Shown here one piece after another: positions 6,331-42,837 of a stretch of DNA of 64,000 nt; the stretch's first letter is position 1; the number at the start of each line of letters is the position of its first letter. The stretch lies in the NCBI RefSeq assembly GCF_900142135.1, contig NZ_FQZU01000002.1, positions 1 to 64,000 of the forward strand, given 5' to 3'. This stretch comes from Desulfatibacillum alkenivorans DSM 16219. GTDB taxonomy: Bacteria; Desulfobacterota; Desulfobacteria; Desulfobacterales; Desulfatibacillaceae. The notes under the pieces are model-generated. The model did no database searches and had not been told where the DNA came from. It worked only from the letters and a program-made list of their open reading frames with translations. The position numbers were made by a program, and so were the translations under genes.

Positions 6331-7122
6331 CTAACCTGACCCATTGCGGGAGGCCAGGACGGCGGCTCCCAGGGCCCCCGTGAGTTGGGGATCCGTAGAG
6401 AGCAAAGAGATCGGCGTTCTCAATGTTTTTTCCAAGGCTTTGACCAGGCCTATGTTTTTGGAGCATCCCCCGGTGACGGTCACGCCGGGCTTTACGCCCA
6501 CGCGGCGGGCCAGGGTGAAAACCCGTTTGGCCACGGATAATTGCACCCCGGCCGCGATGTCCGCCGGGGAGTTCCGCTTGTACAACAGGCTGACCAGTTC
6601 GCTTTCGGCGAACACCGTGCACTGGGAAGTGACCGGCACGATTTTTTTCGCCTTCAGGGATAATTCCGAAAACTCGTCCAAAGACAGGTCGAAGGTGCGC
6701 ACCACGGCCTCGTAAAATCTGCCCGTGCCCGCCGCGCATTTGTCGTTCATGGCGAACTCCAGCACGCTGCCCGTATCCGACAGGGCGATGGCCTTGATGT
6801 CCTGGCCGCCCACGTCCACAATGGTGCGGATATTGTTGTCGCAAAAATGGGCGCCCACGGCGTGGCAGGTGATTTCCGAGACGTTTTCGTCCGCGAAAGG
6901 CACTTCGTTCCGGCCGTAGCCCGTGCCCACCAGCTTCGCCAGATCCTCCACTCTTTCCAGGTCGTCTATTTGCTGGATCGCCAGATTCAACACCTCGCGG
7001 CCTGTCTCCACCGGGTCGATTTTGCTTCTGATGCAGGCGGTAGCGACAATCTCTCCGTCCTTTAAAATAACCGCCTTGCCCGTCGTCGACCCCAGGTCGC
7101 ACCCTCCGTAATACTTGGCCAT
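6331..7122 (-). CDS. 2-hydroxyacyl-CoA dehydratase / benzoyl-CoA reductase activator (BadF/BcrD/HgdC family ATPase)
   Basis: This 263-residue protein belongs to the ASKHA-fold ATPases that inject an electron into 2-hydroxyacyl-CoA dehydratases at the cost of ATP. The N-terminal phosphate loop GGCDLGSTTGK (6-16), the second phosphate motif DVGGQDIKAI (103-112) and the C-terminal TGG-x-SKN segment are visible. The dimer-bridging [4Fe-4S] cluster should be held by C129 in KCAAGTGRF and C168 in SQCTVFAE. It is the last gene of the minus-strand operon, 25 bases after the larger dehydratase subunit, which fits its role as that enzyme's activase. Confidence 0.9.
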   Translation of the reverse strand: MAKYYGGCDLGSTTGKAVILKDGEIVATACIRSKIDPVETGREVLNLAIQQIDDLERVEDLAKLVGTGYGRNEVPFADENVSEITCHAVGAHFCDNNIRTIVDVGGQDIKAIALSDTGSVLEFAMNDKCAAGTGRFYEAVVRTFDLSLDEFSELSLKAKKIVPVTSQCTVFAESELVSLLYKRNSPADIAAGVQLSVAKRVFTLARRVGVKPGVTVTGGCSKNIGLVKALEKTLRTPISLLSTDPQLTGALGAAVLASRNGSG

Positions 7123-7147
7123 AATTCCCCCCGAAGAAATTATAAAA

Positions 7148-8566
7148 TCAAAGCAGCGGCTCAGCCTGCATGACCGTTTCCATAAAAGCCTCAGCCTGCT
7201 TTTTCATATCCACGGGCGATACCACCCGCGTGTCCGAAAGATCGTAATTCATGATAAACAGCGGGATTTCCCGCTCCCTGCACCGCTCCCGAAACATGCC
7301 GTTCAATGCCATGGTGTTTTTGCACCCGATGTGGCCGGCCATCCAGATCATGTCCAGGGAAAAATACTCGTAAAGGTAAAAAAGATCGTCGAAAAAATTC
7401 TCCGCAGGCCCCCGGGTGTGGCGGGCCATGGGGCCTTCCACAATAATCTGGGCCAGGCTGCGGAGCATGGAGTCCGGGCTGGAGACGTCAATGAACGGGT
7501 GGCGATGATAGGTCAGCATATCCGCCAACAAGGCGACGCCGTACTGCTGCTCGGCCCAGACGAATAATTCCGGAAACACCAGGGTGGGGGGATTCCATAA
7601 AACCGCCCGGTAGCGCTCTTCCGGCAGGGCCCCCCCTCCGTTTTCCATGATTTTTTTGGTGCGCCTTAAAATGTTTTTCATGGTGCGGGTGGCCCGGGGC
7701 GAGCCCGGAGTGGCCACCATATGGATAAGCTGGGCCAGCCAGATGGCTTCCCCGGCCATGGGCGCGGGCTTCTGGCGAATCAACTCCCAGATTTCCAGCT
7801 CATGCTCCATGGCCTTGTTTCTTTCAATGCAGACCTCTTTCAGCCGGTCCCAGTCCATGCGTCCGGGGGTGTGCTCCTCCAGCCAGGCGATCATGCGTTT
7901 GAGCTCCGAGACAAAATAGTCGATGGCCCGGTCGTTGTAAAAGTTGTACGGGATGTCCAGCCGGAAACAAGGGGATTTCAACTCCCTCTCCAGGATGGTG
8001 TACGACGCCATGCCGCCGTCGCAGGGCATATTGGAGGTGACAATGGCCGCGCTTTTGGGGAATTGGCCGTCCAAAGCCACGCCCATGGTGCATTTGGGCA
8101 GGCTGCACGTATCCGGGGGCGTGCCTTCGTTCTCCGCGATGTCGATGTATTTCTCCGCCCAATCCGCCTTTACCAAAGGTACGGCGATGCCAATCACCTC
8201 GGCCATGAACGGCGCCAGGCCCATGCCGCGAAAAATTTCCGACGGCACAAGGTCCTCGTGGATGATCACACGGTCCGGAGAGGCGCAAATGGAGTCGATA
8301 AGGTCGCCGATGCCGCCGATCACCTCGGCCAAGGCGTAAGCGCTGGCCTCCCGATACCGGCCTGTGCGGGTGTAGACCGCCATATCCAACAGGTTGGAAG
8401 CTCCCGCCAGCGTCCGCAGCCAGTCCCAACTGAAAATCTCACGCATCTTGCCTGGGCCGTGCCTTAACAGGCGCGCCAGGGAGCCTATGGATTCCACCCT
8501 GTATCGGGCGTAAACCGCTTTGTCCTTCCAACTTGCGTCGGCTTTTTTCAGATCTTGAAGTCTCAT
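7148..8566 (-). CDS. 2-hydroxyacyl-CoA dehydratase family subunit (HgdA-like)
   Basis: This is a 472-residue member of the HgdA/HgdB/BcrBC/FldBC family that holds a [4Fe-4S] cluster and, with its partner, dehydrates a 2-hydroxyacyl-CoA or reduces an aromatic acyl-CoA. Conserved cysteines are seen in TCSLPKC, NMPCDGG and the C-terminal GHIGCKNT segment. ATG 8566 is chosen because it overlaps the upstream gene's stop (ATGA), which indicates translational coupling. The longer upstream frame would run through the neighbour's coding region. The substrate cannot be assigned from sequence. Confidence 0.85.
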   Translation of the reverse strand: MRLQDLKKADASWKDKAVYARYRVESIGSLARLLRHGPGKMREIFSWDWLRTLAGASNLLDMAVYTRTGRYREASAYALAEVIGGIGDLIDSICASPDRVIIHEDLVPSEIFRGMGLAPFMAEVIGIAVPLVKADWAEKYIDIAENEGTPPDTCSLPKCTMGVALDGQFPKSAAIVTSNMPCDGGMASYTILERELKSPCFRLDIPYNFYNDRAIDYFVSELKRMIAWLEEHTPGRMDWDRLKEVCIERNKAMEHELEIWELIRQKPAPMAGEAIWLAQLIHMVATPGSPRATRTMKNILRRTKKIMENGGGALPEERYRAVLWNPPTLVFPELFVWAEQQYGVALLADMLTYHRHPFIDVSSPDSMLRSLAQIIVEGPMARHTRGPAENFFDDLFYLYEYFSLDMIWMAGHIGCKNTMALNGMFRERCREREIPLFIMNYDLSDTRVVSPVDMKKQAEAFMETVMQAEPLL

Positions 8567-9693
8567 TTTCCCATGCTCTCCAAAAACGCCTGGATGCGGG
8601 TTTGCAACTGCCCTTCGCTGGACATGGTGTATTCCCGTTCCAGTTTTAAAATGGGGACCCCGGCTTTGCGCAGTTCCTGGACCATGGGGCTGGACTCCAC
8701 GCCCCAGGTGTCGCAAAATTTCATGGTCTGCAAAACCACCCCGTCGGCCCGATACTCCTCCACAGCCTCCAAAATTTCGTCCACCCTGGCCTGAAAGGAT
8801 TCCATCATGCGCGGGCAACTGATGTTCGCCAAAGCCCGCTCGGCGAGGGTTTCGTAGGGAGCGCCGTTTTCGGGAATAGGGGCCAGGGCCGGAATGGAGC
8901 CCGTGCAGGTGCGCTCTGCAACCACCAGGCCTCCTGTTTTTTCGATGACATCGATGTATCCGGGATCGTCGCAGTGGCTTCCCGCCAAAAGCACTCTGGC
9001 TCTGTAAGGCTTGCCTTCTTTACCCTCCCTAAGACGGGCAAGCAGGGCTTTCAACTCGTCCATGACCATGTCTTTGGGCGCACTGGTTGACGCGGCCAGC
9101 AAGGTTTGGAACATGGCGCCGGTCACGGGCGGGTTGTCCTGTTTGCGCATTTCGCTGATTTCACGCATGACCGAAAGATAGGCGTTATGCTCCTCGATGG
9201 ACCGGGACAAAGCCTGGGGGCTTGCGTCCACCCCGAACGATTCGGCCAGAGCCGCGCCCAACGACTTGTACTCCTCGGTAAGCCATTTTTCCGCGGCCGC
9301 CCCCCCCCGGTGGGGCATGTCGATCATGTGGTTGAAAGCCGGTTTGTTCAAATAATCCAGGTTGTCGTACAAGCGCCTGAGATGGTCGCAGCTTGCGGCG
9401 AACACCCAGCCGTCCAGAGAGTCAAAAGCCCACTCCAGGGCCAGTTCCAACACGCTGCGGGTGTAGGAGCAAATCACCGACGACAGATAGGTGTCGGCCA
9501 TGGGCGTTCCCACCACCCCCGGCGCCCGCACCCGGATGGGAAAGACCCCGTCCAGGGAAAGGAGCGGCTGGGGGACATAGCTGCACGTGTACGCAATGGC
9601 TTTTTTCCCCTGCTCTTGCGCCTGGTCGACCAGATTATTTACCGGTTGGTCAATAATTTGGCGAAAAAAATCCGAGATGACTGCTTGGTTCAT
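8563..9693 (-). CDS. 2-hydroxyacyl-CoA dehydratase family subunit (HgdB/BcrB-like)
   Basis: This 376-residue protein is the smaller dehydratase-family subunit. Typical cysteines sit at C37 (YTCSYVP), C75 (VICSYTRS), C102 (ASCDHLRR) and near C327 (MKFCDTWG); some of these should ligate the cluster. ATG 9693 is preferred over the TTG at 9705 because TGAGG precedes it. It overlaps the next gene by four bases and begins 17 bases after the CooC-like gene. It forms the catalytic pair with the HgdA-like protein. Hydratase, benzoyl-CoA reductase and double-cubane-type reductase functions are all possible for this superfamily. Confidence 0.85.
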   Translation of the reverse strand: MNQAVISDFFRQIIDQPVNNLVDQAQEQGKKAIAYTCSYVPQPLLSLDGVFPIRVRAPGVVGTPMADTYLSSVICSYTRSVLELALEWAFDSLDGWVFAASCDHLRRLYDNLDYLNKPAFNHMIDMPHRGGAAAEKWLTEEYKSLGAALAESFGVDASPQALSRSIEEHNAYLSVMREISEMRKQDNPPVTGAMFQTLLAASTSAPKDMVMDELKALLARLREGKEGKPYRARVLLAGSHCDDPGYIDVIEKTGGLVVAERTCTGSIPALAPIPENGAPYETLAERALANISCPRMMESFQARVDEILEAVEEYRADGVVLQTMKFCDTWGVESSPMVQELRKAGVPILKLEREYTMSSEGQLQTRIQAFLESMGK

Positions 9694-9710
9694 ACAAGGC
9701 CTCAAAATGA

Positions 9711-10466
9711 TTATGGGTTGATGAGCTTTTCCGCGACGGCCCTGGCGGCTGTCAAGGCCGGGTTATCAGAGGGCAAATCCCACAGGGAGCGGCCTTGCCT
9801 GTCAAAGGCGCGCACCTGATCGTCCTCGGGGATAATCCCCAAAAATTCCACGTTGGGGGGCAGGCCCAGGTCGTCCACCCTGTCGACCCGGTTGCCGATG
9901 ACCCCCATGATGGAGGGATCCACCATCCGGGTTATCAAATCTATGGTTTGGACGCTGCGGGAGGACCCGTCGGACAAGGCAATGACCCTGGTCACGCGGC
10001 GGGTCACCTGCCTGGCGATCTGCTCCAGGCCCGCTTCCGCGTCAATAAGCACCATGGCGAAGGGCTCGGCCAAAAGGTCGATGGCCTCCCTCAAAAGGGT
10101 ATTGGCCGGGCAAAAGCAGCCCTTGGCCTCCATGCGTCCCATGGCCAGCAGCGAGTAGCCCGGTCCCTCCACCAGGGCTTCCATGACCAGGTAATCCAGG
10201 TCCTGGGCGAGGCGCGTTTTTTCCGCATCCCCAGCGCCGCGCGCCGTGGAGATGAGTTGATCCCTGGCGCCGGCAAGGGTTTTATCCGCTTTTTCACCGA
10301 CCGCCGAAACCAGTCCGCCCGCCGGGTCTGCGTCGATCAGCAGCACGGGGCGCGGGCCCAACTCCAAAAAGGCCCGGGCCATGAGGGCGGAAACGGCGGT
10401 TTTTCCCACGCCGCCTTTTCCGCATACGGAAAATATGGGTTTGGCGTTATTCTCTCTTTGGGTCAT
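9711..10466 (-). CDS. CooC-like nickel-insertion / MinD-type ATPase
   Basis: This is a 251-residue P-loop ATPase with the deviant Walker A CGKGGVGKT (15-23), which has the signature lysine of the MinD/ArsA/CooC class, and the Walker B-like VLLIDADP (41-48). The KGCFCPAN segment gives a C117-x-C119 pair at the place where CooC proteins bind metal between two subunits. CooC loads nickel into CO dehydrogenase. No CODH catalytic subunit is in the window. The gene is instead sandwiched between a CdhC-like fragment and the dehydratase pair, overlapping the former by four bases. A role in metal-cluster maturation or ATP-gated electron delivery for this operon is inference. Confidence 0.8.
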   Translation of the reverse strand: MTQRENNAKPIFSVCGKGGVGKTAVSALMARAFLELGPRPVLLIDADPAGGLVSAVGEKADKTLAGARDQLISTARGAGDAEKTRLAQDLDYLVMEALVEGPGYSLLAMGRMEAKGCFCPANTLLREAIDLLAEPFAMVLIDAEAGLEQIARQVTRRVTRVIALSDGSSRSVQTIDLITRMVDPSIMGVIGNRVDRVDDLGLPPNVEFLGIIPEDDQVRAFDRQGRSLWDLPSDNPALTAARAVAEKLINP

Positions 10467-11314
10467 GCTTTGGCTGCTTTTTCGGATTTTTTCTGCTTGC
10501 GGCGCCTTACAACCACGTCGCGCAGGTTATCGCACACGGGTTTTTCCTCGCATTCCTCGCAATTCAACTCGCTGCACTCAATGGATCCGTCCACTCCAAG
10601 CACCAGCTTTTTGTGCCGGCCCGAAAGCACTTTGGCCTCGGCCGCAATAGGCTCCAGAGCGAGGACGTCCTCCCTGCCCGTGGTCACAAAGGCGATTTCC
10701 GCCTTTAACACGCCGGGAAAGTCGTCCGTATACGCCTTGACAAGGGCCGAACCCACGGTGTGAAGATCCAGGCCTTGGTTGAACCGGTCCTTTCCCACCC
10801 GCACCCACAGCTTGCCGGGCACGGAGCGGACCATATAGCCGGGCAGCCGGTGCATGAGATATTGGGCGTTTTCCAGGTCAAAGGGGTCGGGCATGGCGCT
10901 TCGATCCAGCGCCAAAAGGATGACCTGGGCGAACGCCTGCCTCCCTCCGGGCTTCATCTGCCTCAAATCCGGCCCGATCAGGGAAATGCGGCCATGCTGG
11001 ATAAGGCTTGGGTCATAAGTCGTCAGCACTGCGGCCAGAGACCCTACGGAAGGATGCCCCAATTCCACCTGGACGTCCTCTGTCAGGATGACCTCGGGCT
11101 TGCCTTTTCCTTTGGCGGAAAATCCGAACTCCCGGATCAAAACCTGTTCGGGCAAGGGATCAGGGTAAACCGTCAGGTTATCCCGCCTTTGGGCCAGATA
11201 TTCCCGCACCTGGTCCGCCAGGACCGCCATGTCGGCGGCTTCCACAGGCTGATCCTGCACGGTTTGGCTGGCCGCCTGGACTTCCGATTCTACATGGGCA
11301 AAATTTGACGCCAT
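10463..11314 (-). CDS. CdhC / acetyl-CoA synthase middle-domain-like protein without the A-cluster domain
   Basis: The product has 283 residues. The stretch from VELGHPSVGS through ISLIGPDLRQM, LWVRVGKD and the following helices resembles the first half of archaeal CdhC, which is the ACS A2-type domain. The C-terminal domain that carries the Ni-Fe-S A-cluster in true CdhC is missing. In its place is a short tail with four cysteines (C247, C252, C255, C261: CSELNCEECEEKPVC) and a lysine/arginine-rich end. ATG 11314 is chosen over ATG 11320 because AGGA is then eight bases away. It is the first gene of the operon, coupled by ATGA overlap to the CooC-like gene. Similarity was judged by eye. Confidence 0.65.
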   Translation of the reverse strand: MASNFAHVESEVQAASQTVQDQPVEAADMAVLADQVREYLAQRRDNLTVYPDPLPEQVLIREFGFSAKGKGKPEVILTEDVQVELGHPSVGSLAAVLTTYDPSLIQHGRISLIGPDLRQMKPGGRQAFAQVILLALDRSAMPDPFDLENAQYLMHRLPGYMVRSVPGKLWVRVGKDRFNQGLDLHTVGSALVKAYTDDFPGVLKAEIAFVTTGREDVLALEPIAAEAKVLSGRHKKLVLGVDGSIECSELNCEECEEKPVCDNLRDVVVRRRKQKKSEKAAKA

Positions 11315-11572
11315 GGACATCTTCCTGAGGCTTTCGCCGGTTGAATGAACAAATGTAAGATTAAGGAAAAACAAGTATTTTGGCTGGTTAAGGCCTTGTT
11401 TTGACCGATTGGTTAAAAATATAGCCCAAATGACGCAATGAGTCAAGGGTTTGTTTTGCACCGTCCGAAACCGGACGCGCCTATGGACAACCCATGGAGC
11501 CTGAACAGCCCGGCATTAAAGGCAATCGGGCGTTCGGACAAAAATAATTCTGCAGGGAGATCCTGCTCCCCT

Positions 11573-11956
11573 TTACGCCGCCCTGGGAAAGTTTCCCGGT
11601 TTGGGCCAGTGGCTAGGCGTCAGAGGCTCCAGGCCGTGGGCCGCCCGGGCTTTGTCGCAACGGGGATTCGGCTCTCCGTTTTCCCAGGAGGGCGTGAACT
11701 CCCGGCATACGGAAGCCCGCTTGTCGTATATGCTGCAATGGACCGACTTCCCTATGAGTCCCATGAGGGCCGAGCACCGGGGCGGAATGTCGTTGGTCCC
11801 TTTGATGACCACAAAAAAATCGTTCAGTTTTTCGCAGATTTCCATGGGGATGCCGCCGGGAGTCGCCTCATCGGTTTCCCCCCAATAGATGGACGCCCTA
11901 AAATAGGCGCAGCATGCGCCGCACTCGCAACAAATATTAGTTGTTATTTCTTGCAT
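11573..11956 (-). CDS. YkgJ family cysteine cluster protein
   Basis: This is a 127-residue protein with the UPF0153/YkgJ pattern: CCECGACC at 9-16, then PPRCSAL, HCSIYDKRASVCREF and a final NPRCDKAR. The cysteines are thought to bind an Fe-S or zinc centre; the cellular role is not known. Its ribosome site is weak. The gene stands alone upstream of the dehydratase operon on the same strand, with more than 250 bases between, so co-transcription is doubtful. It is the first of three YkgJ-type proteins in this window. Confidence 0.8.
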   Translation of the reverse strand: MQEITTNICCECGACCAYFRASIYWGETDEATPGGIPMEICEKLNDFFVVIKGTNDIPPRCSALMGLIGKSVHCSIYDKRASVCREFTPSWENGEPNPRCDKARAAHGLEPLTPSHWPKPGNFPRAA

Positions 11957-17181: not shown

Positions 17182-20172
17182 ATGATTGCCACATGCCTGA
17201 AATGCATCTATCACGCCCATTCTGGATTTGCCGCGGAACAATGGGGCCTGCCCCTGACTTGTTGTCATGGCTGCCGTCGCTATCACATGATCGGCGAGGG
17301 CGGCGGAGGAAAATCCTCCGGCAGCGGCGGAGATCTTTCCCTGGATTCGGACTTGGACCTGGGCTCCCTGGATGACGACCTGGATATGGACCTTTCCAGC
17401 CTGGAAATGGATTTGGACGCAGGCTCCGACTCCGGCGCCTCCGCCCAGGCCGGCGCCCAAGCCGGCTCCGATCCCTTGGATGTCTCCGACCTGGCTCTGG
17501 ACCGCCCGGCGGCCCCGGTTGACTTGGATGAAGACCTTCCGGATTTGGATCCTGACCTGGAGGGCGATTCTTCTTCCTATGCACCGGATGATGACACCTT
17601 TGACCTGGACGTGGATCTGCCTGAGTTGGACGACGATCTGGGGACGCCTGAATTGGAAAATCAGTTGGCCGAAAATCTGGCCGCAGTTTCCCAGGCGGCT
17701 CCGGCCCAACCCAAGGATATGGATATTGACCTCCCCGATCTGGAAGACGAGTTCGGAGACCAGCTTGCCGAAAGCGTGGAGGACATCAATTCCGTGGGAC
17801 AGGGCTCGGAGTTTTCCTCCAGGGACGACGGCCTGGGCCTGCCGGAACTGGATATGGTTCCCGAGGACAATATAGCCGAGGAGGAAGCGCTCGGCGAAGT
17901 GAGCGACGAACTGGACCGGGAATTGCCGGAACTGGACATGGGGCTCCCCGAGATTGATGAAGATTCGGTGGACGACTCGGCCATGAGCCTGTCCGAGGAC
18001 GACGCCCTTGATATTCCCGACCTGGACATGGACCTGCCGGACATGGATTCCACGGCGGATGACTCGACCCAGGGGCCGGGCGCCGATGAATTGGGCCTGC
18101 CCGACCTGGACAGCGATCCCGGCGATCTGGGCATGGCGGCGGATGACGAATTGGGTCTGCCGGACCTGTCCAGCGAGGACGACAGCCTGAGTCTCGACGA
18201 CGACGGAACGGATGCAGACGGCGACCTGGCCCTGGGCGGAGACGATGACGGCGGCCTGGACCTTGGCCTGGATGACGCTGCAGATGACGACGATTTGGGC
18301 CTGCCTGACCTGTATGACCCTGCTTTGGAAGAACCCGCGGCCCCCGAAGCCGCTGATGATGATTTGGACCTGTCCGGTTTGGACGCAATGCCGGAAGGAC
18401 TTGACGAACCGGTAGACGCCCCCATGGATTTGGATCTCGACGGTCTGGACGACCTGGGAGACGATCTGGAGGCTGGAGCCCCCCAGGAAGCGGATGCAAC
18501 GGAAGACGCCCCGTCGGAACTGGACTTGGAACTGGGAGACACAATGACCATGGATATGGATGGCGTAAAGGAACCGGAAGCCTCTCCGGATTCCGCAGAT
18601 TTGGATGTGGACCTTGGCGACATGGATACTTTGGAAGACCTTAGAATGGAATCGGACGACGAGGAGGAATCCTCCGGCGAACTGGAGCTGGAACTAGAGG
18701 ACATGGACGGCGGAGAAGACTCCACGCCCCTGCCCCTGGAAGAATCCACCGCGGACCTGGATCTGGATTTGGACCTGGACAGCTTTGCGGAAGAGGATAA
18801 ACCCGCCGAGGCGGCCGCTGGGGAAGACGGCCTCGGCCTCGGCGAGATGGATCTGACCGAGGAGCTTCTTGTTCCGGAGTCCGAAGAAGACGACTCCGAA
18901 GGATTGGGCGAAGACTTCGATTTGGAAATCGACGACCTGTCTACAGGCGCGGAGGATGCGCCTGCCAAGGACGCGCCGGTTTCCGACCTGGACCTGGGCG
19001 ACCTGGAAATGGAGCCTGAAGCCGAACTGGAAATGACCGAAGAGGAAGCCACCGAAGAAATGTCCATTGACCTGGACAGCTTTGACCTGACCATGGATGC
19101 CAGCGCTCCGGAGCCCGAGCCCGCCCAGCAGGCGGCTGATGAGGGCATGGACCTGGATTTTGACATGGACATGGAGGACAGCCAGGGCGACGACGGCGGT
19201 ATGGATCTGGATATTGATCTGGAGGATGAAATCGCCTCGGACGGCCTGGAAGTGCAGGTCGTGGACGATGATGAGCAGGAATTTGAGATTGATGAAGATA
19301 CGGATGATTTCCAGGTGGACGCGCCCATAGGCGACGCCATCCAGACCATGGAGTTCACCCATGATGAAGAAGGCGCGGCAACCATGGACATGGAGCCCGG
19401 CGAAACCATGGAGCTGCCGCCGGAAACCATGGACACTGAAGCAAGCGCGCCTCCGCCGCCTCCGCCTTCCGATGAGGAAGAGGAGGAAGAAGATTTTGCC
19501 GCTCCGCCTGCCAAGAAAGGCCCGAGCAAGATCCTGATCCTTCTGTTGGTGCTGATCATCCTTTTGGGCGGCGGCTTTGCCGCAGTCAAGTATCTGGACA
19601 TCCAACTGCCCTTTGAAATCCCGTTTGTATCTGAAATGCTGGGGATTGCGCCCGAGCCTGAGCCGGCCCCCAAACCCATGCCGAAGCCCAAACCGGCCCC
19701 GGCGCCCGCTGCAAAACCTGTGGCGCCCAAGCCCCAGGCCGCGCCTGCTGAACCGCCTGTCTCGGCCGCTCCGAGCCGGAACATAGTGGGTCAGATCAAT
19801 TTCGGCGCCTATCAGCATGAGTGGATCCAGGGCGCTGACGGCAGCTGGATGCTGGTGGTCAGCGGAAAGGTGCAAAACGGATTTAACGCGCCTTGCAGCA
19901 ATATTCGCCTTAAAGGGGTGTTAAAGGACGCTGCGGGCAAGGTTCTGACCGAGGTGCAGGCCTACGCTGGCAATCCCCTGCCCAAGGCCCAATTGAGCTC
20001 CATGAGCCGGGCGGACATCCGCAGCGCCATGGGCAATAAAAATGGCGCCGGAAATTCGAATTTAGGTCTTGCACAGAACGGCGTTTTAGACTATACGGTT
20101 GTTTTCTTCGATCCGCCGGCGGCCCTGGATTCCGTGGACGTGGTCCTTGCTGAAGCCAATCACGGCAGCTGA
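17182..20172 (+). CDS. Zinc-ribbon / giant acidic repeat / single-span membrane protein with DUF3426-like C-terminus
   Basis: This is a 996-residue protein. Residues 1-38 form an MJ0042-type zinc ribbon (C5-x2-C8, C28-x2-C31). Residues ~45-765 are low-complexity and extremely acidic, built from irregular D/E-L repeats such as LDLGDLD, LPDLD and MDLDLD. A proline patch and a basic KKGPSK segment precede one membrane helix (~782-806, ILILLLVLIILLGGGFA). A Pro/Lys/Ala-rich linker then leads to a DUF3426-like beta domain (~866-993). Zinc ribbon, helix and DUF3426 are a known delta-proteobacterial combination of unknown function; the 700-residue acidic insert is unusual. By the positive-inside rule the acidic part is cytoplasmic and the DUF3426-like domain periplasmic. 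The ATG follows GGGGAAAAGAC. Confidence 0.7.
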   Translation: MIATCLKCIYHAHSGFAAEQWGLPLTCCHGCRRYHMIGEGGGGKSSGSGGDLSLDSDLDLGSLDDDLDMDLSSLEMDLDAGSDSGASAQAGAQAGSDPLDVSDLALDRPAAPVDLDEDLPDLDPDLEGDSSSYAPDDDTFDLDVDLPELDDDLGTPELENQLAENLAAVSQAAPAQPKDMDIDLPDLEDEFGDQLAESVEDINSVGQGSEFSSRDDGLGLPELDMVPEDNIAEEEALGEVSDELDRELPELDMGLPEIDEDSVDDSAMSLSEDDALDIPDLDMDLPDMDSTADDSTQGPGADELGLPDLDSDPGDLGMAADDELGLPDLSSEDDSLSLDDDGTDADGDLALGGDDDGGLDLGLDDAADDDDLGLPDLYDPALEEPAAPEAADDDLDLSGLDAMPEGLDEPVDAPMDLDLDGLDDLGDDLEAGAPQEADATEDAPSELDLELGDTMTMDMDGVKEPEASPDSADLDVDLGDMDTLEDLRMESDDEEESSGELELELEDMDGGEDSTPLPLEESTADLDLDLDLDSFAEEDKPAEAAAGEDGLGLGEMDLTEELLVPESEEDDSEGLGEDFDLEIDDLSTGAEDAPAKDAPVSDLDLGDLEMEPEAELEMTEEEATEEMSIDLDSFDLTMDASAPEPEPAQQAADEGMDLDFDMDMEDSQGDDGGMDLDIDLEDEIASDGLEVQVVDDDEQEFEIDEDTDDFQVDAPIGDAIQTMEFTHDEEGAATMDMEPGETMELPPETMDTEASAPPPPPPSDEEEEEEDFAAPPAKKGPSKILILLLVLIILLGGGFAAVKYLDIQLPFEIPFVSEMLGIAPEPEPAPKPMPKPKPAPAPAAKPVAPKPQAAPAEPPVSAAPSRNIVGQINFGAYQHEWIQGADGSWMLVVSGKVQNGFNAPCSNIRLKGVLKDAAGKVLTEVQAYAGNPLPKAQLSSMSRADIRSAMGNKNGAGNSNLGLAQNGVLDYTVVFFDPPAALDSVDVVLAEANHGS

Positions 20173-37957: not shown

Positions 37958-38392
37958 CTATGCCGCTTCGCCCTTTTTAGCCAGCTTCATGGGATTGGGA
38001 CCCAGTTCGCGGATTTTTTCCGTCATCTCCCTGGCGAAGGCGGCGAATTTAGGGCCTTCCGCGGACGACAGATTGTACATCTGCACCCTTTGCCCGCCCA
38101 TGCCCACGGAGTCCAGGACCTTCTGGGCCTGGAGAACCCGTTTTTTTGCGCGGAAGTTGCCGTTGTTATAAAGGCATTCCCCTTCCATGCACCCCACAAC
38201 GTAGGCTCCGTCAGCGCCTTTTTCGATGGCCCTTAACAAATGGATGACATCAATTTTCCCGGTGCAGGGCGCCCGGATGACTTTGATGTTCGCCGGATAC
38301 TCAAGTCGCATGGACCCAGCCAGGTCCGCAGCCGAATATCCTCATTGGTTGCAGCAAAAAGCCACAATGATCGGTTCGAAATCCTGGGTCAT
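37958..38392 (-). CDS. mvhD: MvhD-like hydrogenase/heterodisulfide reductase delta subunit, selenoprotein
   Basis: Reading through one in-frame TGA gives a 144-residue protein of normal MvhD length. It starts at ATG 38392 (overlapping the hdrA stop as ATGA) after GGAG. The N-terminus reads [17 protein letters not shown]17-GYSAADLAG, where MvhD proteins have CCNWCxY...GADLAG; the TGA replaces a [2Fe-2S] ligand cysteine. C-terminal cysteines (RAPCTGK, VGCMEGECLYNNGN) follow. A bSECIS-like hairpin sits right after the TGA. MvhD passes electrons between hydrogenase or MetF-type partners and HdrA. If TGA is treated as a stop, only a truncated frame from 38311 would be annotated. Confidence 0.92.
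38312..38344 (-). promoter_or_regulatory. Selenocysteine codon and bSECIS-like hairpin in mvhD
   Basis: The TGA is at 38344-38342. After 14 bases, GGACC (38327-38323) pairs perfectly with GGTCC (38316-38312) around the loop TGGCTG. A short stem with a G in the first loop positions, about 20 bases after TGA, is what bacterial SelB-recognised SECIS elements look like. It lies within the coding sequence, as bacterial SECIS must. Confidence 0.75.
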
Positions 38393-41300
38393 AAAACTCC
38401 CTCCAATAAGGCTTCCACCTTGCTTAATATTTGTTCGTCCTCATACCAGTTAAGCCGGATGGCCTTGGCCGGGCATTCGGAGGCGCATACTCCGCACCCC
38501 TGGCACAGGGCCGGGTCTATGATGCTTTTTCCCGTTTCATCGATTCTGGGCACGCTAAAGGGGCAGGAACGCACGCAAATCAGGCAGGAGGCGCATTTTT
38601 CCTGCTCCACCACCGCCTTGACCGCCGACAGGGTCAGGCTGTCCTGGGACAAGAAGGTGGTCGCCCGGGAGGCCGCAGCCAAAGCCTGAGCCACGCTTTC
38701 GGACAAGAGCTTGGGGCTGTGGGCCGTGCCGCACACGAAAATGCCTTCCGTGGTCATGTCCACGGGGCGCAGCTTGACGTGGGCCTCCATAAAATATCCG
38801 TCCGCGTTCCGGGGCGCTTTCATGATGGTGGAAAGCTCCTCGGTCTCCTCGGGAACCATGCCAGCGGACAGGATCAGGTTGTCCGCCGCCAATTGCAGGC
38901 GTTTGCCAAGTACAAGATCCCTGAAGGTTATCAACACGCCTTCTTCCGAGGCTTCCACAACAGGAGGTTCGTCCTGGTGGAACCGGAAGAACATGACGCC
39001 CAGCTTGCGGGCCTCCTGGAAATAGTCCTCCATGGTCCCGTAGGTGCGGATGTCCCGGTAAAACACGTAGACCTCGGCGTCGGGATTGGATTTTTTGATG
39101 TGAAGCGCGTTTTTGACGGCCGCCTGGCAGCAGATGCGGCTGCAGTTGGGGTTCTCCTCGTTTCGGGATCCCACGCACTGGATCATGGCGACTACGCCCA
39201 TATCCATGGCTGCGTCCGGGCTGTCCGCCAGCAGGCGGGAGAGCTCCACCTGGGTCAGAACCCGGTCGTCCTCGCCGTAAAGGAATTCCTTGGGCTGGTA
39301 CTCCTTGGCGCCGGTGGCCAGAATCACCGCGCCGTGGTCGATCTTCCGTTCATACATGCCCGGGCCCACCAGAACCTCCGTGGTGAAATTGCCCTTGAAT
39401 CCGGAAAATCCCACAACCAGGGAATCGGTCAGCACCTGGATCTTTTCATGGTCCAAGACCTTTTCAACCAAAGGCTCCAGGCTGTCGGCGATAGTCACGC
39501 CTTCGATGGTCTTGGTCAGCTTCAGGGCCATGCCGCCAAGCCGGGTTTCCTTTTCCAAAAGCACCACCTCAAAACCCTGGTCTCCCAGGGCCAGGGCGGC
39601 GGTCATGCCGGCGACGCCCCCTCCTACAACCAGGCATCTGCGGTTGACCGAGAGCTTTTTCTCCTCCAGGGGGTCCAAAGTGGCGGCCCTAGCCACGGAC
39701 ATGCGCACCAGATCCTTGGCCTTTGCCGTCGCCTGTTCAGGCGTGCTGGAATGGCACCAGGAGTTCTGGTTGCGGATGTTGGCCATTTCGAACAGGTATT
39801 TGTTGAGCCCGGCCTTTTGGAGCGTGTCCATGAAGATGGGCTCGTGGGTCTTGGGCGTGCATGAGGCCACAACCACCCGGTTGATGTCGTGTTCTTCGAT
39901 GAGCTCCTTCATGGAGTCCTGGGCGTCCTGGCTGCAGGTGAACAGGTTGTCGCCCGAGTACACCACGTGAGGCAGGGAGGCGGCGTACTCCTGCACGGCC
40001 GGGACGTCCACAATGCCGGCGATGTTGATGCCGCATTTGCAGACAAACACGCCGATGCGCGGCTCCTCCTGGGAGACGTCCTTTTCCGCGGGCATCTCCA
40101 CGGATTTGGTCAGGGTGTCGCGGCTTTCGGCCAGGGCGGTCCCGGCGGCGCATGCCGCTGCGCTGGCTTCGGTCACGCTGGTGGGGATGTCCTTGGGACC
40201 TTGGAACACGCCGCACGCGAAAACGCCCTCCCTGGTGGTGGCCACAGGGGCGAACGGCGTGGTGACGGCGAAATTATGCTTATCCACTTCCACGCCCAGG
40301 CGCTCGGCCAACTCGCCCACGTCCTTTTGAACCTGAAGGCCCACGGACAGGACGACCATGTCAAAGACTTCCTGCTGCACGTCTCCGTTTTCGTCCGCGT
40401 ACCGGATTTCCAGGTCCCTGGTGTCCTTCAAGTCCTCGATGGTGTGGACCCTGGCCTTGATGAACCGGACTCCTTCCTTGTCCCTGGCCCGGTTCAGGTA
40501 TTGTTCGTAGTCCTTGCCGAATGTGCGCATGTCCATGTAGAAGATGGCGCAGTCCAGATCCTCCTCGGAATGCTCCTTGGCGATCATGGCGTCCTTGCAG
40601 GCGTACATGCAGCACACCGAACTGCAGTAGGTGTTTCCGCACCGGTTGTTGTCGCGGGAGCCCACGCACTGGAGCCAGGCGATTTTTTTCGGCTCCTTAT
40701 GGTCCGACGGCCTGGCCAGATGCCCCATGGTGGGGCCGGAGGCCGAGAGAATGCGCTCAAACTCCAGGCTGGTCATGACGTTGGGGTTGATCCCGTATTG
40801 GTAGAATTCCCGGAACGGCGCCGGGTCGAAAGGTTCGCTGCCCGGGGCCAGGATGACGGATCCCACCTGGATTTCCAGGTCCTTGTCTTTTTCGTCATGC
40901 TGAACCGCTCCGGCGAGACAGGCCTCCACGCACTGGTAGCATTCGGAGCACACGCCGCATTTGAGGCAGCGCTGGGCTTCCTCCAGGGCTTCCTGCTCGT
41001 TGTAGCCGCAGTGAACTTCGTCAAAGTTGCCGGACCGCGCTTCAGGCAGCAGACAGGTCATTTCCACCCGTTCCTTTACAGGCTCGTCAATGACTTCCGG
41101 CTTGTAGAAATCCCAGTCCTCCTCCCGGCCTTCCAGCATGTCCAGGCCGTTGATGAAGCGGTGAATGCTTTCCGCAGCCTTTTTGCCGCTGGCCACGGCG
41201 TCCACCACGCTTTTGGGGCCATAGAATGCGTCCCCGCCTGAAAACACCCAATCAAGAGGCGTCTGCAGGGTGGCGGGATCAGCCTCCAGGCCGCCGCGCG

Positions 41301-42837
41301 GAGTGACCGAAATGCCCTGGCCGTCGGTGTACGAAAGATCCGCGGACTGGCCGATGGCCACGATAATGGTATCCGCGCCCATGGCCGTGCAGTCTTCCGA
41401 ATCGTATTGGGGATTAAACCGGCCCTGTTCGTCGAACACGCAGGTGCAGGCCATGAACTCCAGGCCTGTGACTCTGCCGTTTTGCACCTTGAATTCCTTG
41501 GGGCCGAAGCAGTTTACAATGTCGATTTCGCTTTCCAGGGCTTCCTGGACTTCATAATCCCAGGCCGGCATTTCCTCCCGGGATTCCAGGCAGACCTGGC
41601 GGACGCTTTCCGCGCCCAGGCGTTTGGCCACCAGGGCCACGTCAATGGCCACGTTGCCGCCGCCGATGACGACCACCCGCTTGCCAAGCTCCACGTCCTT
41701 GCCCAGGGCCGTATCCCGCAAAAAGTCCACGCCCTGGATGATGCCGTCCGCATCTTCGCCCGGAACATTCAGCGCCCGGCCTCCATGGAGGCCCGTGGCC
41801 AGGAACACGGCCTGATACCCATCGGCTTTCAGGCTGTCCAGGGTGACGTCCGTTCCAAAAGACACGCCGGTTTTGATTTCCACGCCCATGTCCGTGACGG
41901 TCTTGACTTCCGCGGCAATGACCTCGCGGGGCAGGCGGTATTCGGGGATGCCCACGGCCATCATGCCGCCGACCACGGGCAGTTTTTCAAAAATCGTGAC
42001 CTTGTATCCCCGCTGGGCCAGGAAATAGGCGGTGGTCAGCCCGGCCGGGCCCGCGCCCACAATGGCGACTTTTTCGTCCCTGGCTTCCTCCACCTGAGGG
42101 ACGAAGCGGTCTTGAAGTTCAAAGTCGTGATCCGCCAAAAAGCGGTGCAGGTATTGGATGGCAAGCGCCTGGTCCGCCCCGCCGCGCGTGCATTCCCCTT
42201 CGCAGGGATGGTGGCAGACGCGGCCGCAAACGCCGGGAAAGGGGTGCTCCTGCTTGAAGAGCTTGAGCGCTTCCTCGTACTTGCCTGCATTGATGAGCGC
42301 AATGTAGCCCTGGATGCTCACATGGGCCGGACAGGTGGCCTTGCAGGGGGCCGTCCCCATTTTGGTGATGGCGTAGGCGCCCGGAATGGCCTGGGCGTAT
42401 CTTTTAAACGCGGCCTTCCTGTCCATGAGCGACTCGTTGAATTCGTCAGGCAGGCTGATGGGACAGGCCTTGGCGCATTCGCCGCAGCTGGTGCATTTAT
42501 CCAGGTCGATAAAACGCGCCTGCTGGTGGACCTTGGCGGTAAAGTTTCCGCTTTCCCCTTCAAGCTCCTGCAGTTCCGCACCTGTGATCAACTCGATGTT
42601 CAAATGCCGGCCGACCTCGACCAGTTTGGGTGAGATGACTCACATGGTGCAGTCGTTGGTGGGGAAAGTCTTGTCCAGCCGGGCCATGAGCCCTCCAATG
42701 GCCGATGACTTTTCCACCAGGTAAACGTAGTATCCCGAATTGGCCAGATCCAGGGCGGACTGCATGCCTGCAATCCCGGCCCCCACGACCATTACGGAAC
42801 CCGTTGCTTCCTTTTTGTCAGGTCTGCTACCGGTCAT
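38389..42837 (-). CDS. hdrA: HdrA-type flavoprotein with inserted NfnB/GltD domain and duplicated HdrA module, selenoprotein
   Basis: Reading through TGA 42642-42640 gives 1,482 residues, about twice a usual HdrA. In order: HdrA FAD segment ([10 protein letters not shown]) ending in FPTNDCTM-U66[12 protein letters not shown], where HdrA has [17 protein letters not shown]; a ferredoxin motif [11 protein letters not shown] (115-125); a GltD/NfnB-like NAD(P)H:Fe-S flavodomain (~160-620, [21 protein letters not shown]); the QCVGSRD-type HdrA segment; a second HdrA with [12 protein letters not shown] (~934) and VVGGGVAGM (~1070); two C-terminal [4Fe-4S] motifs. It should bifurcate or relay electrons between NAD(P)H, MetF and ferredoxin; direction is inferred. 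No HdrB or HdrC is nearby. ATG 42837 has GGGGGGAA before it. Confidence 0.92.
42607..42642 (-). promoter_or_regulatory. Selenocysteine codon and bSECIS-like hairpin in hdrA
   Basis: The TGA at 42642-42640 is codon 66. After 15 bases, CTGGTC (42624-42619) pairs with GGCCGG (42612-42607), six pairs with two wobbles, around the loop GAGGTC, which begins with G. Position and loop fit a bacterial SECIS. The codon is in a conserved HdrA motif where other members have Cys or, in some, Sec. Confidence 0.75.

Follow-up and report, generated by a model that had tools for sequence, protein, structure and literature searches.

Layout of the operon

The stretch of DNA analysed in this study (hereafter the window) comprises 64,000 nucleotides from Desulfatibacillum alkenivorans DSM 16219. 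Five open reading frames were confirmed on its minus strand at positions 6331-11314. These genes, the motifs discussed below and a promoter-like element are as follows.

11418-11446, minus strand: promoter-like TTGACT-17-TATATT, 10 of 12 consensus matches, followed by AACCAATCGGTCAAA
10463-11314, minus strand: CDHL, predicted A2 (middle) domain of acetyl-CoA synthase (ACS) plus a cysteine tail, without the A-cluster domain; overlaps COOC by ATGA
10799-10807, minus strand: W170-x-R172 of CDHL, invariant in 38 of 38 relatives, aligning with W-x-R of the ACS middle domain
10532-10576, minus strand: cysteine tail of CDHL, C247 followed by C252, C255 and C261 (CX2CX5C), the last three invariant in 38 of 38
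9711-10466, minus strand: COOC, MinD-family ATPase of the ACS-operon (AcsF-like) lineage; 17-base gap to HGB1
10110-10118, minus strand: CxC motif of COOC (C117, C119), aligning with CooC (3KJE) and equivalent to Cys112/Cys114 of CooC1
8563-9693, minus strand: HGB1, BzdN-like subunit; ATGA overlap with HGB2
7148-8566, minus strand: HGB2, BzdO-like subunit; 25-base gap to the activase
6331-7122, minus strand: activase, ATP-driven electron activator of the HgdC/BcrAD family

All five genes are genuine and constitute a single operon. The reading frames, the ATGA overlaps and the gaps of 17 and 25 bases were all found as the first-pass annotation had described them, and profile searches of each protein agree with its assignments (a CdhC-like protein, a CooC-like ATPase, a dehydratase-family pair and an activator). 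The sequence AGGAAG lies 6 bases upstream of the CDHL start at 11314. The promoter-like element and AACCAATCGGTCAAA are nearly identical upstream of CDHL in a genome of the same genus (L058), and sites of the TTGACT-17-TATATT type occur in the region at chance level. The sequence AACCAATCGGTCAAA might be a TetR-type operator.

Just upstream of the operon, on the same strand, positions 11573-11956 encode a CxxCxxCC (zinc- or iron-chelating) domain protein. Elsewhere in the window, a 996-aa reading frame (17182-20172, plus strand) matched no Pfam family at E < 1e-4, and its neighbourhood is kept in L058. A 1404-aa protein (38389-42603, minus strand) combines 4Fe-4S domains with two flavin/NAD oxidoreductase modules.

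CDHL and COOC

The similarity of CDHL to CdhC, singled out beforehand as a point on which the annotation might fall, is clear in both profile and structure searches. In Pfam, CDHL matched PF03598 (CdhC) with E = 6.9e-13 and 49.2 bits (cut-off 24 bits), and no other family was found at E up to 1. A profile built from 38 CDHL relatives gave convincing matches to ACS/CdhC chains only. Exonuclease V, whose nuclease family has a cysteine motif similar to the CDHL tail, matched this profile at E = 0.35, which was taken as chance. The AlphaFold2 model of CDHL (pLDDT 86.9) gave 23 Foldseek matches at E < 0.001, every one of them ACS. Residues 55-239 of the model superpose on residues 316-495 of Moorella ACS (1oao) with a VIA Z score of 19.8, at 2.5 Å over 177 residues; nothing except ACS rose above noise in Foldseek and VIA. 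Judged by profile and by superposition of the predicted model, CDHL has the ACS A2 fold and is the middle domain of ACS.

Residues invariant in all 38 relatives include E84-L-G-x-P88, G114, D116, G159, M161, W170, R172, F209, T211, C252, C255 and C261. The relatives span 23-69% identity, yet keep these residues. Like W-x-R, the GPD motif is retained in CDHL. In ACS, CoA binds to the middle domain, which in a model also contacts a partner protein (PMC12289521).

When the CDHL profile was compared with the ACS profile in hhalign (probability 98.7, E = 2.7e-16), the alignment extended through the tail and paired C252, C255 and C261 with C513, C516 and C525 of the ACS encoded in the same genome. 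We take the latter to be C506, C509 and C518 of the Moorella enzyme, three of the four ligands of the A-cluster [4Fe-4S]. The tail cysteines would thus correspond to three A-cluster cysteines, judging from a short, cysteine-rich stretch of alignment; in the predicted model the tail has a pLDDT of 50-60. The fourth A-cluster cysteine has no counterpart in CDHL in the profile alignment (3 of 4 aligned). The A-cluster domain PF19436 and the CGC nickel motif are absent from CDHL, which ends 22 residues past the third invariant cysteine; the ACS of the same genome does match PF19436. Of the earlier description of CDHL as a protein lacking the A-cluster domain and ending in four cysteines, the first part is confirmed. 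The second needs amendment: three cysteines are invariant and aligned with the A-cluster, while C247 is lineage-specific, being confined to the window's family and some others.

COOC has the profile of a CbiA/MinD-type ATPase, and its best solved relative is CooC (3KJE). Of the 36 CooC-family homologues in the first locus set (33 are linked to CDHL), 35-36 keep the deviant Walker A motif (GKGGVGKT) and the CxC motif; the CxC motif itself is invariant (36 of 36). In CooC1, Cys112 and Cys114 hold Zn or Ni where the two halves of the dimer meet (PMC6006190). In a maximum-likelihood tree, the 53 ATPases of CDHL clusters form a single clade (SH-aLRT 95.8, UFBoot 100). Its sister group (99.7/100) has eight members: seven ATPases encoded in CODH/ACS operons and one (L100) encoded elsewhere in the window's own genome. 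CooC1 falls outside both groups. AcsF, the ATPase of the ACS operon, inserts nickel into ACS. On the basis of the tree placement of COOC, CDHL and COOC look like ACS together with its own ATPase lineage.

The absence of CODH reported in the first-pass annotation holds for the operon and not for the genome, which encodes CODH and a full-length ACS elsewhere (G000:C18). The genome has one CDHL only. Two observations on related loci may be recorded here. An ACS-like gene with several stops lies inside a CODH/ACS operon (L173, G617:C93), and NZ_CP154629.1 (L228), a chromosome-like replicon of 2.63 Mb labelled as a plasmid, carries a Wood-Ljungdahl gene cluster.

The reductase genes and their association with CDHL

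Both HGB1 and HGB2 match PF06050. HGB1 is related to DCCP (its best solved relative), BzdN and HadC, and adjoins BzdN in the tree. Its residues C37, C75, C102, C263, C293 and C327 align with the [8Fe-9S] double-cubane ligands of BzdN, given as Cys36/73/100/263/293/327 in PMC11971306. Every CDHL-linked HGB1 having residues at the six positions keeps these cysteines. The pattern is CCCCCC in HGB1 versus PCCACC in HadC, and MbdN also lacks the full set. HGB2 is related to BzdO, and its C154, C182 and C415 align with the [4Fe-4S] residues Cys95, 128 and 380 of the latter; two extra cysteines, C246 and C429, are conserved in 14 of 14 members of the first set. The alignment showed no equivalent of the active-site His131 of BzdO, HGB2 having PCDGGMASY versus CCSH-SKWY at this position. 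Glu65 of BzdO lies outside the stretch aligned with HGB2; E104-D105 is conserved where its counterpart might lie. The activase belongs to BcrAD_BadFG, scores 241 bits with TIGR00241 (cut-off 125) and matches the structure 4EHT with E = 3e-59. Against the bzdN, bzdO, HadBC and double_cubane equivalogs, the HGB proteins stay well short of the cut-offs; for the last of these (NF040772), HGB1 reached 188.6 bits against a cut-off of 350. By its sequence, the reductase is a distinct member of the BCR/HAD superfamily outside the named equivalogs.

These assignments bear on the strong form of the first-pass proposal, in which the reductase receives nickel from COOC and CDHL and thereby gains a new nickel or heterometal site. 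The position of COOC in the ACS-operon lineage, its CxC motif (Ni- or Zn-binding in CooC1) and the extra cysteines C246 and C429 of window-type HGB2 speak for such a site. Since HGB1 and HGB2 have the cofactor ligands of the known BzdNO, however, the reductase's own site need not be unusual, and CDHL lacks the C-terminal domain whose CGC motif holds nickel in ACS. We regard the nickel-site proposal as improbable.

The same five-gene order is found in L058, L060, L061 and L063, all of the window's family, and CDHL is present in nine of nine genomes of this family. Recurrence of the neighbourhood beyond this genome had been named beforehand as a test, and it recurs well outside it. The linkage counts cover loci in Desulfobacterota, and the co-occurrence counts a sample of 389 genomes of the class. 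In 60 of 71 loci, reductase or activase genes lie no more than four genes from CDHL, and in 49 of 71 COOC is no more than two genes away, some of the other 22 being cut off by the end of the contig. Stand-alone CDHL was counted by manual reading in 61 of the 389 genomes of the class sample. Window-type HGB2 occurs in 30 of the 389, 29 of which have CDHL, as against 32 of the 359 others (Fisher p ~1e-25, or ~2e-19 with the window's own family excluded, both uncorrected for kinship). The CDHL family was also found outside the class, inside the phylum. A scan of genome contigs gave two CDHL loci, both from the window's family, and a search of plasmids gave one match, a true ACS of Acetoanaerobium. 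Among the matches listed in the search for relatives, all are within the order.

Since the five-gene order recurs in four other loci and the linkage of CDHL to the reductase recurs phylum-wide, the grouping is more than chance, and it is well supported that CDHL, COOC and the reductase genes belong together. The two proteins could in principle be chance neighbours or passengers from a lost Wood-Ljungdahl cluster, as both descend from an ACS gene cluster. As a general account this is refuted by linkage and co-occurrence conserved over many families; the invariant residues persist despite the divergence of the relatives, and the genome retains a CODH/ACS elsewhere. Such an origin of the association is hardly credible.

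In other families, CDHL and COOC are placed after a four-gene reductase operon (HGB1, HGB2 and two activases). A GMC oxidoreductase and a protein predicted to be all-helical are often encoded ahead of this operon, and a second trio orthologous to that of the window often follows. A single CDHL is often found in a cluster that has two reductase modules (L090, L093 and L146), and CDHL and the trio lie on different contigs in G027, G089 and G347. The window's own genome contains the first half of the larger cluster, unlinked and without CDHL (G000:C10:114000-126738, L107:2754-11798), with genes for a GMC oxidoreductase, a TetR protein, a 496-aa helical protein, HGB1, two HGB2 and two activases. 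The helical protein of about 490 aa (L107:4724-6214 and relatives, alignment A4; predicted all-helical, pLDDT 80) heads most of the four-gene clusters, only a shorter form being called in some genomes; the one member tested had no Pfam match. Lone window-type HGB2 paralogues with neither HGB1 nor CDHL nearby were seen in L194, L196, L197, L198 and L203.

It is also conceivable that CDHL functions as a subunit of the reductase, being a CoA-binding Fe-S protein that either supplies electrons to the activase or HGB1 or presents the acyl-CoA, COOC serving only to load CDHL. COOC is not adjacent in the 22 loci mentioned above, which include compact CDHL-HGB2-HGB1-activase operons (L066, L152, L154, L156, L169-L171). 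Moreover, the W-x-R and GPD motifs of the CoA-binding ACS middle domain (PMC12289521) are retained, and Fe-S proteins are often close by in the cluster (L079, L090). A fixed subunit would, however, fit poorly with one CDHL for two reductase modules in many clusters and with the genomes in which CDHL and the trio are unlinked, and the passages of PMC11971306 consulted mention no CDHL-like subunit for BzdNO, HAD or DCCP. For the same two genomic reasons we lean towards a helper rather than a fixed subunit, and consider the subunit explanation possible but doubtful.

A few CDHL loci have other neighbours. In L163, L164 and L165, CDHL adjoins an acyl-CoA dehydrogenase gene with no reductase genes in view. 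In L080 and L091 it adjoins two very long genes resembling recC/recB (1092 and 1210 aa in L091), the reductase trio being elsewhere. In L069, a class-V aminotransferase of the family to which cysteine desulfurases belong adjoins COOC-CDHL, in line with the maturation role proposed below. The acyl-CoA dehydrogenase loci, the A2 fold with its conserved W-x-R, and CX2CX5C tails that suit zinc as well as Fe-S would agree with CDHL being a CoA or acyl-CoA sensor or an allosteric regulator of the reductase, with structural zinc at its cysteines. Such a role leaves the maturation-type ATPase beside CDHL in most loci unexplained, and we consider it very unlikely.

Interpretation and comparison with known systems

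The best explanation we can offer, held tentatively, is that CDHL and COOC act as a dedicated metallocentre module that descends from ACS and its ATPase lineage and has been reused as a maturation partner for ATP-dependent double-cubane acyl-CoA reductases. It is based on the retention of the ACS middle domain with a cysteine site beside an ATPase of the matching lineage. Taking the observed gene order, domain identities, ligand residues, COOC ancestry and genomic association together, we infer an action of COOC on CDHL, a maturation role of CDHL towards the reductase, and the overall reaction of the system. COOC, with its nucleotide-binding and CxC motifs, would load an Fe-S cluster or metal onto the three-cysteine site of CDHL. 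Through the surface with which the ACS middle domain contacts CoA and partner proteins, CDHL would then dock on the reductase and complete or maintain the metal centres, namely the double cubane of HGB1 and the active-site [4Fe-4S] of HGB2. The activase would drive electrons into HGB1 at the expense of ATP, and HGB2 would reduce an acyl-CoA.

Several observations count against the maturation role: the compact operons without COOC, the double-cubane proteins without CDHL, and the loci L163-L165 without a reductase. CDHL is not a universal double-cubane factor, since other double-cubane proteins of the window's genome (L105, L108, L110), as well as two HGB1 of the same clade (L104), stand without CDHL as a neighbour. 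The earlier suggestion of a metal-handling pair for a low-potential reductase remains reasonable, and the COOC tree strengthens it. Nickel may be involved in the CDHL/COOC system. In a related proposal, CDHL would carry half of an A-cluster, a three-cysteine Fe-S centre into which COOC has loaded a second metal; the centre, or the metal from it, would join the reductase as a cofactor new to the BCR/dehydratase family; we give it a small chance of being correct.

Benzoyl-CoA-reductase-type enzymes operate at potentials outside the usual biological window (PMC11971306), and no account of the assembly of the unusual BCR-type clusters was found in the cited literature. The open-licence literature gave no description of CooC together with a benzoyl-CoA reductase or 2-hydroxyacyl-CoA dehydratase. 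Two candidate connections were set aside. The ether-lipid/plasmalogen route (Ger/PlsA) involves Ger, a single ~150-kDa protein with no tie to the operon (PMC11150832), and the work on acetone activation in Desulfococcus mentions BCR-like genes and not CooC (PMC4103992). The parts of the operon are of known kinds, and no description of their combination was found in the open-licence literature searched. The fact that CDHL and COOC travel with an unrelated ATP-driven acyl-CoA reductase in many sulfate-reducer-type bacteria suggests that some of the lowest-potential enzymes known have a helper module not yet described. If this is true, a pair recruited from ACS and its ATPase lineage joins two metalloenzyme systems so far studied apart, CDHL/COOC is a specific candidate for the assembly of the clusters or the entry of electrons, and an ACS domain has been put to use outside carbon fixation.

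Compared with ACS/CdhC, CDHL shares the A2 middle domain, GPD, W-x-R and three aligned A-cluster cysteines, whereas the N-terminal domain, PF19436, the fourth cluster cysteine and the CGC motif are missing. COOC resembles the CooC/AcsF-type ATPases in GKGGVGKT and CxC and is sister to those of CODH/ACS operons, but forms a separate clade and adjoins neither CODH nor a full ACS. The 2-hydroxyacyl-CoA dehydratases (HadBC/HadI, HgdABC) likewise combine a PF06050 pair with a single activase gene, although HadC lacks two of the six cysteines kept by HGB1. The double-cubane cluster protein DCCP has all six; it is a homodimer (PMC11971306), whereas the reductase of the window would have two different subunits. 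The class I benzoyl-CoA reductase BzdNOPQ has two activase subunits, whereas the operon in the window has one activase gene and other CDHL loci have two. The window pair is distant from it, lacks an equivalent of His131 in HGB2 and has CDHL and COOC alongside. With BzdNOPQ it nevertheless shares the six double-cubane cysteines in HGB1, the three [4Fe-4S] cysteines in HGB2 and an ATP-driven activase of the BcrAD family.
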